Below, in pieces: positions 144 through 14,316 of a DNA stretch of 64,000 nucleotides. Numbering within the stretch: position 1 is the stretch's first letter; each line of letters starts with the position of its first letter. The notes under the pieces are model-generated. The model was not told where the DNA came from. It did no database searches and saw only the letters and a list, made by a program, of their open reading frames with translations. The DNA is from Pseudacidobacterium ailaaui (GTDB taxonomy: Bacteria > Acidobacteriota > Terriglobia > Terriglobales > Acidobacteriaceae), in assembly GCF_000688455.1 (NCBI RefSeq), contig NZ_JIAL01000001.1:1147001-1211000 (forward strand), given 5' to 3'. Both the position numbers and the translations under genes were made by a program.

Positions 144-443
144 ACATCCCCCTGCAGGAAATTTTGAGAAGCAAAATTTCATGTTTGTTACTAATTACTA
201 AGCAAACCAGATTCCAGAAACCGCAGGTTCGAACGGAAAGTACCCCCGATGCAAAATCTGACCCTAATTTTCAAGGATTTAACGAATTTTCTGTTTACCT
301 TTAAACAAATATATATTCGATTTTGTTTACGCATTGAGAAATCAATCCGTTTTGTGTGTCTCCGATTTTTAGGAAACAGACTGCATATGTTATGAAAATT
401 CATATTTGCTGCGCATACACTGGAATTGCGGCATGAAATCGAC
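144..443. other. AT-rich divergent intergenic region
   Basis: This 300-base gap separates the leftward receptor fragment from rightward rlmH and must hold both promoters. It is clearly more AT-rich than the flanking genes, with T- and A-runs around 260-330. I could not assign a confident -35/-10 pair, and I see no tRNA, repeat or credible short gene in it. Confidence 0.5.
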
Positions 444-881
444 ATGAAACTTTTGTTGGCATGGATTGGTTCACGGAACGTGCGTGATTCGCGCGAAGCG
501 GAGTACCTCCGCCTGATCCAACCTTTCGCATCGATAGATTCGGCTGTCTTCCGCTCTGAAAAGGACTTTTTTGACAAAGCTGCCGCGCTAAAGGGGCGGA
601 CGGCACCCGTCCTGGTCCTTTTGGACAGTCGAGGAAAGCAATGGACTTCAGAAACATTTGCTGCATGGCTTGGCCGCCAGCGTGATGATGGGTGTCAACG
701 AATCATTTTTGCGATAGGGCCGGCTGATGGATGGTCGGAAGAGGCGCGCGGGCGCGCAGATCTGCTGCTTTCTCTCTCCATGATGACGCTGCCGCACGAA
801 CTGGCGCGGGTCATGCTCTGCGAACAGGTCTATCGGGCATTTACAATCCTCTCTGGGCATCCCTATCACACGGGACACTGA
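444..881 (+). CDS. rlmH: 23S rRNA (pseudouridine1915-N3)-methyltransferase RlmH
   Basis: The 145-residue product is a SPOUT-class methyltransferase that methylates pseudouridine 1915 in helix 69 of 23S rRNA using S-adenosylmethionine. The SAM-binding knot loop is visible as FAIGPADGW (about residues 89-97), and the C-terminal family signature runs from LPHELARVM to the ending HPYHTGH, matching the family's conserved HPYH tail. ATG at 444 is preferred over an upstream in-frame TTG because the family begins MKL directly. The length is slightly below the usual 155. Its TGA overlaps the ATG of cobO by one base, so the two are probably translationally coupled. Confidence 0.93.
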   Translation: MKLLLAWIGSRNVRDSREAEYLRLIQPFASIDSAVFRSEKDFFDKAAALKGRTAPVLVLLDSRGKQWTSETFAAWLGRQRDDGCQRIIFAIGPADGWSEEARGRADLLLSLSMMTLPHELARVMLCEQVYRAFTILSGHPYHTGH

Positions 882-9864: not shown

Positions 9865-12800
9865 CTATTCGACTGTAAGGGTGGCTGCGACACTTTTTGT
9901 TAATCCATCGAGGGCCGCATTGATCTGAATGGTGTAAGTATTTGATGGCGTGGAACCTGGCTGGTTACCGGGAGTAGAACCTGAACCTCCGCTGGCGCTG
10001 GTGCCGCAGGCAGTAAACAGGAACAAGAGGCACGATACCGCACCCCCAAGCCAGAGTTTGCGCACAGGTCTATTCTTGGGCAACAGTACAAAAATATAGG
10101 GAAGGAAAGCGAATGCAGTTGTCATCCTCTGCCAGAGCAGGGCCGCGCTGGGCCCGACCCCGGTGACAACAGTAATGGTGGCCGTGAGTGTACTTCCAGA
10201 GGAAAGCGTTGCTCCCGCAGCAAGGCTGGAGGTGCAGGACGCATTTTGGGGCAGATTGGAGCAGCTGATCTGGATAGGCCCGCTGGAACCATCGACCGAA
10301 GTAAGCTGCACCTGATAGCTCGCCTGCTGTCCACTCACAATGATCCAGGACGTCTGCCCGGTAAGGGCCAAGTTAAAGTCCTCTCCAATGCCGGAAAGGG
10401 GGAGAGTGTAGGGCGCGGAAAGTTCAACCGCACCGATGGTCAGAGTTCCCTTACGGGACTGGGTCTGGGTGGGAGTAAATGTGATGCTGATGGCGCAGGT
10501 ACCGCCGACAGGAAGTGTTCCGCCGGACTGGCATGTGTTGCCTGCAAGGGCAAAGTCACCACTGACGGCAAAGCTTAATCCTGTAAGGGCGACCCCGCCA
10601 TTGTTTGTAAGGGAAACGGTCTGCTGCTGGCTGGTGGTATTGATGCCCTGCCCACCAAAGTTGACCGAGGAGGGCAAGAGAGAGAGACCTGCGGGCGCGG
10701 TCCCTGTACCGGAGAGGGCGACGGTCTGTATTCCAAGCGCCGTGCTGACCCGCAGTGTCCCGGTCTCCACCCCGACCTGCTGGGGGGCGAAGCTCACACC
10801 AATGACGCAGGAAGAATGGCCGGGAAGCAGCGCAGAGCAGTTGTTCTGGAGCAGAAAATCGCCACTGACTGATACCTGGATCTGGGCCAGCGCGGCATCG
10901 CCGGTATTCGTGAGAGTGACAGATTGAGGCTGACTGACAGTTCCTGCCGTGACGGGTGTGGAGAAATTCAGGCTCGATGGAGAAAGCTGTGCCGTGGCCT
11001 GCGTTTGACCATTGCCAGAAAGCTGGACCATCTGGGTGCTGGAGCCGCTGCTGATGGTAAATGCGCCGCTGCGCAGGCCCGAGGCCGTGGGGGAAAAAAC
11101 AATGCTGACGGTGCAGCCGCTATTGGGCGGCAGGGAGGTACCACAGGTGTTGGCAGCAATTTGAAAGTCTCCGCTGATCACGGGTGGTTGCAGGCTGAGT
11201 GTGCCGCTTCCTGTATTGGAAACGGTGATGTTCTGGGCCGGGCTGGTAGCGCCAATGAGAGTATTTCCGAAGTTGAGACTGCCGGGCATGACCAGCAGAG
11301 TGCCTGCGGGGAGTCCCGTACCGGAAAGTGAAGCCGTCATCTGACCGCCAGGAAGGTTCCCGAAGATGGTAAGCGTGCCCTGGATGGGACCGGTCACCAG
11401 CGGGGCGAAGCTGACCTCGATCGTACAGCTCTGGCCGGTAGCAACAGGCTGTGAGCAGGTGTTCCCTTCAGTAAAACTCTGGCTGACTGCGATACTCGTG
11501 ACAGAAAGAGAAACAGGCCCGGTATTCGTAACGGTGACGGTCTGCGCCGCGCTGACGCTGTTGACCGCCTGTCCGCTGAATGTAAGAGCAGAAGGTGTAA
11601 GAACAGCATTTGTGGACTGCGTGCCGGATGTAAGCAAAGGGACCTGCCAGATTCCACGTCCATAGGTGGAGGCCAGCAGCAATTGTGTGCTGCCGTTGCT
11701 GATTGAGTGGAGCTGGGTAACAGGAGTATAAGGAAGTCCTGACCCGAGCCTGCTCCAGCAAGGATAACTAGTGTCTGTGCAGGCGATGATGTTGCGCGTC
11801 GCATAGACGCCTGTATCCAAAGCCACATACACAGTGTTGGCGTCCTGCGGGTCCACGAGGACACTGTTCGCAGGAGCATTCGGGAGATTGCTGGCGATGG
11901 AAATCCAATGCGCGCCGCCATCCACGCTGCGATAGACCAGCGCACCATTGACTCCGGGCGTAAGAAAGCCCTGTCGCGTTACATACACAGTGTTGCCCGT
12001 GGGATCATGCGGGTCTACTTCGATCGAGGAGATATCAAAACCTCCTGCATTGAAAACGGCGCCAGCCGCGTTGATGATGGGGGATTGGGTCAGATCGTTC
12101 CAGGCAGCCAGACCACCGGAGGCGGGCACCGTCGCGGAATAGAGATGCCCGGCAATGGATGCGCCGCCATCGGCCCAGCCCGCCATGCCAGCATAGAGGA
12201 CCTCCGTGTTACCACTGCCTCCGGAGGCAGCCAGGGAGCGAACCAGGGCATTGCCGTTGCAGTTGCTGGTCTGCTGGTCCTTATCCAGAGGGTTGCTGAG
12301 GAGATTGTTCAGCGTCCAGCCCTGACCACTGGCGGGACCGCGCCACACGCGGCAGGTGCCCAGAATGATGTTGGAGGTGTCCTGCGGGTCGAGGATCCAG
12401 GGAATGATCGGGCCGGTTACATCATTTCCGATCTGTGCACTGCCGAGGGCCGCCGTCCAAGGGCCGGAAGAAGCGCAGGCGCTTCCGGACAAACAGCTTT
12501 CAAGAAAGGGACTGGCACCGGACGGGGCCACGGTGGCATACCAGTTTTGTGGATTTTGCGGATCGATCGCGCTGTTGTCGCCTTCCCCGGAGAGGGCAAG
12601 TGTCCATGCACCTGGGGTACCAGAAAGGGCCGCGGTCCCGAATGCGCCGAGTGAAGCCATCATGAGGGCGGGATTCTGCGGATGCACGGAAAAGGCCGCA
12701 ACTTCGCTGATGGGACCGAGTGCACCGTTCAGGTCTTCAAAATGGGCCGCATCATCGGAAGAGCAAACGGGCTGCTGCTGATTGACTGCGTCGCTGGTGC

Positions 12801-14316
12801 GCCAGAGTCCTCCGTCTGTGCCGAAAAACATCCAACCGTTCGCGCCAAATGTGGCCTCAATGGCGTGCTGGGAAGGCGCGACCCTTGCCGCCGCGCAACT
12901 GCTGGTGTTGGTCGTGTTCCGCCAGACACAGCCATTCAGAAGGCTGCATCGGAAAAGGTCTTTTGTGCCGACGAACAATAGCGTGTCCTGCTGCGCGGGC
13001 ACGGCAGCAAGAGACAGGTCATAATCGCCCTGGGGGACCTTCCCGCCCTGCTGGAGAGGGGTGTCAGCAATCTGCTGCGAGAAAGTGACCGTAGAAGAGG
13101 CACAGCCGCTGCTGCTGGCATTGCATACGTCCCGCCACAGGCCCTGGTCCTGATTGCTGTTGTCCACAGTCATTGCAAAGAGGTCGCCAGTGACAGGTTG
13201 AGACACAATGGTTCCGCGGAAGATGGGACACTGTTCTGAACCAATGGCATTGGGGTTGGCCGGACACTGCGCCGCATTCAGTCCCGCGCCGGGCTGGTTC
13301 TGGAGCCGGGTCCAGGTCATGCCGTCTGTGGACTCGTAGTAACCGTGGTATCGCACAGCGGCATAGAAGCGTTTGCGCACAGGGTTCCAGGTGACGGAAG
13401 TGGCGGCGTTTCCGGAAGCGCCCAAAGGCGACTGGTCGGGAGACTGAACCACCATTCCGGGGCCGTCCTGGATTTTGGCCAGGTGCCATGTCAATCCGGC
13501 GTCCTGCGAATAGTAAAGGCCGGCAAAGCTGTTCGCTGCGGAGGATTCTGCATCGACCACAACGCCTTCTGCAGCGTCCGCCACTGCCGCCACCACCAGC
13601 TGGGGATTGGCGCTGCCCCAGGCGAAACCGGAGAACCCCTCACCGATGAAAGAATAGGTGCGGAGAAGGTGATCCGCAGCGCCGGAGATGAGGCACCAGG
13701 ATTGGCCTCCATCTGCGGAGCGCAGAATGCCTTCCCCATAGTAGGAGTCCAGCGCATCGTTTGGATCCCCTGTACCGGCCAGCACGATACCGCCTGGCAG
13801 CACTGCAAGAGCACCAATGCTGAGCGAGGGAACAACTGGAGTCTGGCAGTTGGAGGCAGGCTGGAGGGTATCCGTAAGGGGAGTGAAGAGGACCGAGGCA
13901 GAGGGGGCCGCGGCATTCGTGGACTTCCACACACCTCCTCCTGTTGTGCCCACATATAAAGTGTTGCCGCTGGGGTCGGAGGCATCGGCAGCAAGACTGG
14001 TAATCCGCCCGCTTATCAGACCAAACTGCGGGGTAAGGACAGCGCCGGGGCCTATGGAAGTCCATACCGCATCTGTTCCAGAGAGGGCCTCAGCATGGAG
14101 CCTCTGGTCCTGAAGACGGGCCTGCATCCGCATCTGTGCGGGAAGCAGGCGATGGCCCGGAATGGTGCGTGGAGCAAGAAATTTGCGGGAGTTTTGCTGC
14201 ATCCGCTGCTGGCTGCCGCTGCGCAGAGAGAGCGCCTGCTGCCCGACCGCGAAGCTGCAAAGATGTCCCACAACCGAAGCCCAGAGGGCCAGCCTCCACC
14301 ATCGAATCGTTGCCAT
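9865..14316 (-). CDS. Large secreted BNR/sialidase-type beta-propeller protein with choice-of-anchor D (ASH) repeats
   Basis: The 1483-residue product has a signal peptide ending near FAVGQQ. About residues 85-900 are rich in BNR/Asp-box segments (GGGVWKSTN, ILRSADGGQSW, VYRSVDGGAHW, YYSQDAGLTW), as in sialidase or photosystem-assembly-like propellers. Four ASH-type repeats follow, beginning LTPSALTFSG, VMPGSLNFGN, LSPSSLNFST and LLPSSVNFGG, then an Ig-like strand region. Near the end this fold is broken by two hydrophobic segments and a lipobox-like FTACG (Cys1437) before a last strand (TYTIQINAA). The enzyme motifs of true sialidases are not evident, so a surface-binding or adhesive role is inferred. 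Start ATG follows GAGAGG. Confidence 0.88.
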   Translation of the reverse strand: MATIRWWRLALWASVVGHLCSFAVGQQALSLRSGSQQRMQQNSRKFLAPRTIPGHRLLPAQMRMQARLQDQRLHAEALSGTDAVWTSIGPGAVLTPQFGLISGRITSLAADASDPSGNTLYVGTTGGGVWKSTNAAAPSASVLFTPLTDTLQPASNCQTPVVPSLSIGALAVLPGGIVLAGTGDPNDALDSYYGEGILRSADGGQSWCLISGAADHLLRTYSFIGEGFSGFAWGSANPQLVVAAVADAAEGVVVDAESSAANSFAGLYYSQDAGLTWHLAKIQDGPGMVVQSPDQSPLGASGNAATSVTWNPVRKRFYAAVRYHGYYESTDGMTWTRLQNQPGAGLNAAQCPANPNAIGSEQCPIFRGTIVSQPVTGDLFAMTVDNSNQDQGLWRDVCNASSSGCASSTVTFSQQIADTPLQQGGKVPQGDYDLSLAAVPAQQDTLLFVGTKDLFRCSLLNGCVWRNTTNTSSCAAARVAPSQHAIEATFGANGWMFFGTDGGLWRTSDAVNQQQPVCSSDDAAHFEDLNGALGPISEVAAFSVHPQNPALMMASLGAFGTAALSGTPGAWTLALSGEGDNSAIDPQNPQNWYATVAPSGASPFLESCLSGSACASSGPWTAALGSAQIGNDVTGPIIPWILDPQDTSNIILGTCRVWRGPASGQGWTLNNLLSNPLDKDQQTSNCNGNALVRSLAASGGSGNTEVLYAGMAGWADGGASIAGHLYSATVPASGGLAAWNDLTQSPIINAAGAVFNAGGFDISSIEVDPHDPTGNTVYVTRQGFLTPGVNGALVYRSVDGGAHWISIASNLPNAPANSVLVDPQDANTVYVALDTGVYATRNIIACTDTSYPCWSRLGSGLPYTPVTQLHSISNGSTQLLLASTYGRGIWQVPLLTSGTQSTNAVLTPSALTFSGQAVNSVSAAQTVTVTNTGPVSLSVTSIAVSQSFTEGNTCSQPVATGQSCTIEVSFAPLVTGPIQGTLTIFGNLPGGQMTASLSGTGLPAGTLLVMPGSLNFGNTLIGATSPAQNITVSNTGSGTLSLQPPVISGDFQIAANTCGTSLPPNSGCTVSIVFSPTASGLRSGAFTISSGSSTQMVQLSGNGQTQATAQLSPSSLNFSTPVTAGTVSQPQSVTLTNTGDAALAQIQVSVSGDFLLQNNCSALLPGHSSCVIGVSFAPQQVGVETGTLRVSTALGIQTVALSGTGTAPAGLSLLPSSVNFGGQGINTTSQQQTVSLTNNGGVALTGLSFAVSGDFALAGNTCQSGGTLPVGGTCAISITFTPTQTQSRKGTLTIGAVELSAPYTLPLSGIGEDFNLALTGQTSWIIVSGQQASYQVQLTSVDGSSGPIQISCSNLPQNASCTSSLAAGATLSSGSTLTATITVVTGVGPSAALLWQRMTTAFAFLPYIFVLLPKNRPVRKLWLGGAVSCLLFLFTACGTSASGGSGSTPGNQPGSTPSNTYTIQINAALDGLTKSVAATLTVE

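Follow-up and report, generated by a model that had tools for sequence, protein, structure and literature searches.

A putative membrane hairpin and a lipobox-like cysteine within a predicted split Ig domain at the C-terminus of acidobacterial exported proteins

The window analyzed here is a stretch of 64,000 nucleotides of the Pseudacidobacterium ailaaui genome (NCBI RefSeq assembly GCF_000688455.1, contig NZ_JIAL01000001.1, positions 1,147,001 to 1,211,000). Its minus strand carries the gene of an exported, multidomain protein, and the subject of this study is the C-terminal tail of that protein, an immunoglobulin-like (Ig) domain that appears to be interrupted by two hydrophobic stretches and a cysteine, Cys1437 (Table 1). 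The reading frame is open, and its translation ends ...LLWQRMTTAFAFLPYIFVLLPKNRPVRKLWLGGAVSCLLFLFTACGTSASGG...SNTYTIQINAALDGLTKSVAATLTVE. Between the signal-like N-terminus, where no lipobox was seen by eye, and a block of choice-of-anchor D repeats (NCBIfam NF012200, E 1.1e-55, four stretches; Pfam PF22073, PF22544 and PF15780 also match) lies a long stretch that matches BNR weakly. In the tail, Cys1437 stands in FTACG, the TAC following directly on LWLGGAVSCLLFLF, with Phe at position -3. An earlier note on this DNA, made from the letters alone, had proposed that the last Ig-like domain is split by an insert of membrane and lipobox-like character and had put Cys1437 46 residues before the end. 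Both numbers are exact. The interval it gave, 9865-10110, was too narrow, as the first hydrophobic stretch, which begins near 10146, is not contained in it.

Table 1. Features of the tail-bearing gene; positions are those of the window.
Feature	Residues	Position	Strand	Basis
Carrier protein, exported, multidomain (choice-of-anchor D repeats), bears the tail	1-1483	9865..14316	minus	Open reading frame (ORF) and Pfam/NCBIfam matches
Sec-type N-terminal signal sequence (approximate)	1-25	14242..14316	minus	Sequence by eye
Four choice-of-anchor D (ASH/HYDIN-like Ig) repeats (outer limits approximate)	~900-1310	10387..11619	minus	NCBIfam and Pfam
Split Ig domain, first part, six strands	1313-1386	10159..10380	minus	AlphaFold2; structural alignment to sialidase 404-502; 64-tail alignment
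Hydrophobic helix 1 (transmembrane helix 1, TM1)	~1391-1410	10087..10146	minus	Hydropathy; AlphaFold2 helices at model 81-93 and 95-100; mean profile of 134 tails
Basic loop KNRPVRK, presumably on the cytoplasmic side	1414-1420	10057..10077	minus	Sequence; basic cluster in 134 tails
Hydrophobic helix 2 (TM2), read as h-region of an internal type II signal peptide	1421-1436	10009..10056	minus	Hydropathy, AlphaFold2, tail profiles
Cys1437, the presumed site of lipidation, with the putative LspA cut immediately before it	1437	10006..10008	minus	Invariant column in 64 tails; G/A/S at -1
Gly/Ser/Pro-rich linker	1438-1457	9946..10005	minus	Sequence; block pLDDT 51-78
Last two Ig strands, ending SNTYTIQINAALDGLTKSVAATLTVE	1458-1483	9868..9945	minus	AlphaFold2 strands 149-159 and 162-172; block pLDDT 94-97

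The split of the domain is borne out by structure prediction and by structural alignment. AlphaFold2, run on residues 1311-1483 with an alignment of 44 rows, gave a model with a mean predicted local distance difference test score (pLDDT) of 83.5 and a predicted template modelling score (pTM) of 0.64. The model has six strands before the insert, then helical stretches and the linker, and then two strands. In blocks of ten residues, the pLDDT is 93-97 for model residues 1-70, 82 for 71-80, 51-79 for the helices and the linker, and 94-97 for the last strands. When the model was aligned to solved chains (VIA; 984 aligned from the best 1000 Foldseek matches), the top chain among the 984 was the Ig domain of the Micromonospora viridifaciens sialidase (1eut, 2ber), on whose residues 404..502 model residues 2..173 lie with 98 residues aligned at 1.9 A and Z 12.7. 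Since a contiguous sialidase domain of 99 residues aligns to both flanks, about 72 model residues are left as an insert. In the model, then, the two flanks are one Ig domain, interrupted between the sixth strand and the last two; the sialidase domain has the same fold but is uninterrupted. The fold is that of NEW3-like bacterial Ig domains, judged by the same alignment to 2ber 404-502, which we take to be of the NEW3 kind. Sequence matches to NEW3 itself (Pfam PF10633) were found at E 1 in only three of 64 tails gathered by search with Cys-bearing profiles, the best at 0.054.

The same geometry is found in the collected loci. Pairing of first-half and last-half profiles gave 156 pairs. In 126 of them the copy is C-terminal and has the insert, with a Cys following a hydrophobic stretch. 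Another 22 are uninterrupted copies of the same Ig domain, all of them internal, that run straight across the insertion point. The other eight had been flagged as internal inserts; on reading, seven proved to be pairings across two neighboring domains, and L133 alone is genuine, with extra domains behind the insert. No C-terminal copy without the insert was seen among the 156 pairs, although the loci had been found through insert-bearing tails, and the count of C-terminal copies is thus not unbiased.

In the alignment of the 64 tails, the Cys is the sole invariant column; two further Cys columns, in the first part of the Ig domain, are conserved at 90% or more. The residue before the Cys is always small. 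It was read in 135 collected proteins, those with the first half matched or read, by taking the last Cys after a hydrophobic stretch with no preference as to position -1: Gly occurs in 52, Ala in 45 and Ser in 38 (135/135). When favored sites of this kind are picked the count is 134/134, and when the Cys after the most hydrophobic stretch is picked it is 65/69, with Leu in four. Seven of the 142 distinct tails lie outside the set of 135; six have a Cys in the same context and L134 is cut short. Position +1 is Gly in 113 of 134 tails and Asp in none of them. The mean hydropathy and charge of the 134 tails run from hydrophobic through basic (about -28 to -17 from the Cys) and again hydrophobic to the Cys, a profile that arises partly through selection, the hairpin rule being passed by 134 of 135 candidates. 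With the basic loop in front of it, TM2 is laid out like a type II signal peptide, a point that the earlier note does not make, and from its sequence it reads as an internal one; LspA, if it cuts there, would thus nick the Ig domain. The earlier note had named a tail predicted as a normal domain, together with a Cys that is not conserved, as what would speak against it. The domain predicted is a normal one, but it is completed from both sides of the insert, which favors the earlier claim, and as the Cys is conserved, the second objection fails. Recurrence of the tail in exported proteins of Acidobacteriota, which the note had suggested checking, was found both by profile searches of genomes and by the scan described below.

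The last strands are retained even when they lie far from the Cys. In relatives mostly labeled subgroup 2 (gp2), whole Ig repeats, from one to several in number, stand between the Cys and the last two strands (L096, L101, L115, L127-L129, L133, L136 and L137), and in L123 and L135 the stretch there is Fn3-like by eye. A first impression that tails of this kind have neither hairpin nor Cys was wrong; the hairpin lies further upstream, with whole domains between the Cys and the last strands. The distance from the Cys to the protein end is about 130-605 residues in the extra-domain tails, as against 40-49 in 107 of the 134 tails, and the extra-domain proteins still end in strands of the GTPAGTYTLTITGTSG type. 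The AlphaFold2 model of the L115 tail (275 residues, 38 rows) has a mean pLDDT of 87.0, with 97-98 in the last-strand blocks. Its residues 3..275 align to the sialidase stretch 404..502 (98 residues, 1.9 A, Z 13.1), and its extra domain aligns on its own at about 150..246. This alignment indicates that the last strands go with the first half despite the domain that separates them. By eye, L127, L133 and L136 have the TSFSAPFVSGGAAL stretch of L096 in common.

The recurrence of the tail excludes chance. Of 61 genomes, P. ailaaui and 60 relatives, 56 gave a match at E 0.01 to a profile built from three tails of the P. ailaaui genome. A wider scan, of one genome per species in 84,980 species, used a pattern drawn from the last strands and free of the Cys; it returned 296 stretches, 65 of which were confirmed as relatives. 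Since the confirmation used a Cys-bearing tail, this set is Cys-blind in its pattern and not wholly so in its confirmation. Hairpin and Cys were found by script in 60 of the 65 loci, and L126, with a longer loop, makes a 61st by eye. Contig edges affect three of the other four: they truncate L131 and L134, and L125, which has the Cys without the first helix, lies at one. In L139 only the last strands are visible in its frame. A hairpin without the Cys was not seen among the 65 loci. All but one of the 65 are labeled Acidobacteria or taxa within; L109, which carries the tail, is labeled Gammaproteobacteria, perhaps through mis-binning or a transfer. Neither plasmids (query, the L063 tail) nor phages (query, the window tail) gave a tblastn match at E 0.001. 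Among tail proteins with an upstream stop inside the locus, a simple script found a signal-peptide-like start in 42 of 47 and a lipobox-like start in 2 of 47. Of ten carriers scanned with Pfam, all but one had a match; they include a subtilase, a glycosyl hydrolase, a pro-kumamolisin-domain protein and beta-propeller, FG-GAP and Ig-repeat proteins. Silvibacterium bohemicum also bears the tail (L094).

The family is already catalogued: the window tail and all 64 collected tails (64/64 at E 1 or better) match NCBIfam NF058595.1 (invert_tail, 'lipo-invert putative C-terminal anchoring domain', release 20.0). The window tail scores 40.5 bits (41.5 in the genome search) against a cut-off of 37, and its match is C-terminal, ending one residue short of the last. 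The model has 113 positions, the first of them falling near the sixth strand (L063 residue 64), so that most of the first Ig part is not covered by it. Searched at full length, the protein gave no NF058595 match at E 1, unlike the tail alone, and annotation may miss long repeat-rich proteins. Six places in the P. ailaaui genome score above the cut-off; for one, this takes the combined score of the place and its in-frame neighbors. Across the phylum the model matches in 91 of 297 genomes at E 1e-4 and exceeds the cut-off in only 36; of 14 control genomes outside the phylum, none exceeds the cut-off, one matches at E 1e-4 and 11 at 0.01. A literature search found no paper that describes the tail in its title or the start of its abstract, or that uses the term 'lipo-invert'. 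New here are the split-Ig geometry, the insertion point as set against uninterrupted copies, and the extra-domain variants.

The enzymes that could act on such a tail are at hand. LspA matches were found in 99 of 99 genomes of the phylum and Lgt matches in 98 of 99; P. ailaaui has one LspA match and two Lgt matches, the second of which (G000:C1:1433849-1434592, minus strand) is divergent, at 97.4 bits. Counted by eye, two or more Lgt matches occur in 10 of 12 genomes of family f1 as against 27 of 87 others, and LspA is single in all 12. A dedicated second Lgt is not required: G014 and G177, with one Lgt match each, have at least eight and at least 11 tail matches, tail numbers per genome being lower bounds in the phylum search, in which no more than 14 candidates were scored for each genome. 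For exosortase (PF09721, E 1e-5) no match was found in the single-contig P. ailaaui genome (G000), one of 37 genomes searched, 27 of which do have a match. Rhombosortase (TIGR03902) exceeds its cut-off in none of the 37, and matches below threshold occur in 36 of the 37 and in 14 of 14 controls. A sortase-like enzyme as a requirement is ruled out by the missing exosortase match at home together with rhombosortase below cut-off. Lgt and LspA are the only tested enzyme families regularly at hand that fit.

What has been computed, in sum, is a split domain, a conserved Cys in a lipobox-like context, a hairpin-like composition and retained last strands. We consider it somewhat better than an even chance that the tail is an internal lipoprotein signal set in a loop of the last Ig domain, which becomes lipidated and is cut by LspA, the two-strand lipopeptide staying bound. 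Bacterial lipoproteins mature by the Lgt, LspA and Lnt pathway, and LspA prefers a residue of the G/A/S class before the Cys. The tail shares with them a basic stretch, an h-region, a small residue, the Cys and a flexible linker. It differs in that the signal is internal, with the Cys at 1437 of 1483 behind a full ectodomain, rather than a type II signal peptide at the N-terminus. On this scheme, the long N-terminal part would be exported by Sec, after which TM1 and TM2 would fold into a hairpin whose basic loop faces the cytoplasm, and TM2 would thereby present the Cys to Lgt as in an ordinary prolipoprotein. Lgt would then attach diacylglycerol to Cys1437, and LspA would cut before it, making the C-terminal 47 residues a lipopeptide whose two strands would complete the Ig fold. 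What tethers the ectodomain would then be a lipid anchor attached without a covalent bond and, if no second cut takes it away, the TM hairpin too.

A few short frames, read from stop to stop, hold only the signal-like stretch, the Cys and the last two strands (L125, 69 residues; L184, 75; L191, 62). Each looks like the predicted lipopeptide encoded separately, and they are kept as weak support. Beside these three, no first-half match was found in the adjoining stretches examined. Gene fission, with L125/L181, L184 and L191 as free-standing lipopeptides, is doubtful; L125 starts 39 bases from a contig end. Of the other split-frame cases, in G370, G377, G387 and G433, that in G370 may be a frameshift and that in G433 is at a contig start. 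In L232 (G387:C53), an in-frame stop lies in the loop between the helices, so that the first half and the Cys-bearing half form separate frames; it may be a pseudogene or a natural split.

Several points weigh against a nicked and lipidated domain. Its topology, lipidation, cleavage, non-covalent completion and final membrane are all steps that we infer, and AlphaFold2 is silent on cleavage. LspA alone would leave TM1 and TM2 of the N-terminal product in the inner membrane, and the fate of these helices is among the weakest points of the scheme; no conserved motif that could serve a second cut was seen before TM1. Position -3 is loose, with Leu in only 41 of 134 tails and Phe in the window tail. 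A yardstick of 22 N-terminal lipoprotein starts had to be dropped, as the set was contaminated with tails and doublets. The short free frames, L191 among them, may be frameshift or contig-edge debris. Finally, the domains that separate the Cys from the last strands are just as compatible with an uncut chain.

Such an uncut chain is the alternative that survives best, though we consider it unlikely: Lgt would lipidate the Cys, LspA would not cut, and hairpin and lipid together would simply tether the undivided Ig domain to the inner membrane. The invariant Cys, the residue at -1, the AlphaFold2 model and the sialidase alignment all agree with it, as do the extra domains. The small residue at -1 in every one of the 135 tails is of the very class that LspA prefers, however, and a lipid would seem to add little to two TM helices. 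A cut followed by separation of the two chains, making the tail a switch for release of the ectodomain rather than an anchor, would have the same anatomy, and some of the ten scanned carriers are hydrolase-like (Peptidase_S8 in L096, Glyco_hydro_39 in L083). Yet the last strands are conserved even far from the Cys, which suggests a need to stay in the domain, and TM1 and TM2 would still hold the ectodomain, so that we regard release as improbable. We give just as little credence to a hairpin that is only a membrane anchor, with the Cys in a disulfide, a metal site or some other role. The two conserved Cys columns in the first part of the domain favor such a role, but the lipobox pattern, with its hydrophobic stretch, invariably small -1 residue and frequent Gly at +1, speaks against it.

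Least likely is that TM1 and the basic loop are a C-terminal sorting signal for an exosortase, rhombosortase or similar enzyme, the remainder being discarded: exosortase is common in the relatives, but P. ailaaui bears its six tails above cut-off without an exosortase match, rhombosortase is above cut-off nowhere among the 37 genomes, and the invariant Cys and last strands are left unexplained. The shape is admittedly similar, as the tails of the PEP-CTERM/exosortase and GlyGly-CTERM/rhombosortase systems have a TM helix and then basic residues near the C-terminus. The window protein, however, continues past the basic residues, and its genome has neither an exosortase match nor a rhombosortase above cut-off. 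MYXO-CTERM with myxosortase, the nearest system described, has this shape too, with a Cys before a single TM helix, and its description proposes that the Cys is lipidated and contrasts the tail with lipoproteins by its missing lipobox and inverted topology (PMC11980579). The likeness is one of C-terminal anchoring in Gram-negatives through an invariant, putatively lipidated Cys; the MYXO-CTERM order is Cys motif, one TM helix and an Arg-rich end, that of the present tail TM helix, basic loop, TM helix, Cys, linker and strands (PMC11980579). The second TM helix of the tail, unlike MYXO-CTERM as described there, would restore the topology of a lipoprotein.

A parallel to the completion step in our favored scheme is donor-strand complementation, in which an Ig fold is completed by a strand from another chain. 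FimC and Caf1M entries are among the fold neighbors of the window-tail model (Z 9.7-9.9). In the proposed split Ig domain, however, the completing strands would be a fragment cut from the very same gene product and would bear the lipid. Somewhat more tentatively, at a little under an even chance, Acidobacteriota may use the lipoprotein pathway to split proteins: LspA would nick the last Ig domain to give a two-chain product whose lipid-anchor peptide is held solely by strand complementation, and some lipidated chains, with further domains of their own, would form a lipid-anchored scaffold with a docked ectodomain, both from one gene. If true, this would be an unstudied route for attaching large exported proteins in a major soil phylum, by way of an internal Lgt/LspA signal, and a natural split-Ig system whose parts stay together non-covalently. 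The joint occurrence of hairpin, lipobox and orphan strands in the tails would then be accounted for, and a family known by a model name would become directly testable.

A further variant deserves mention. L108, L132, L163 and L170 are short proteins of about 310-355 residues with an aromatic stretch after the Cys, for example CNPRYNYINHHPP; in L170, from the P. ailaaui genome itself, the stretch reads CNARWGYLNHPP.
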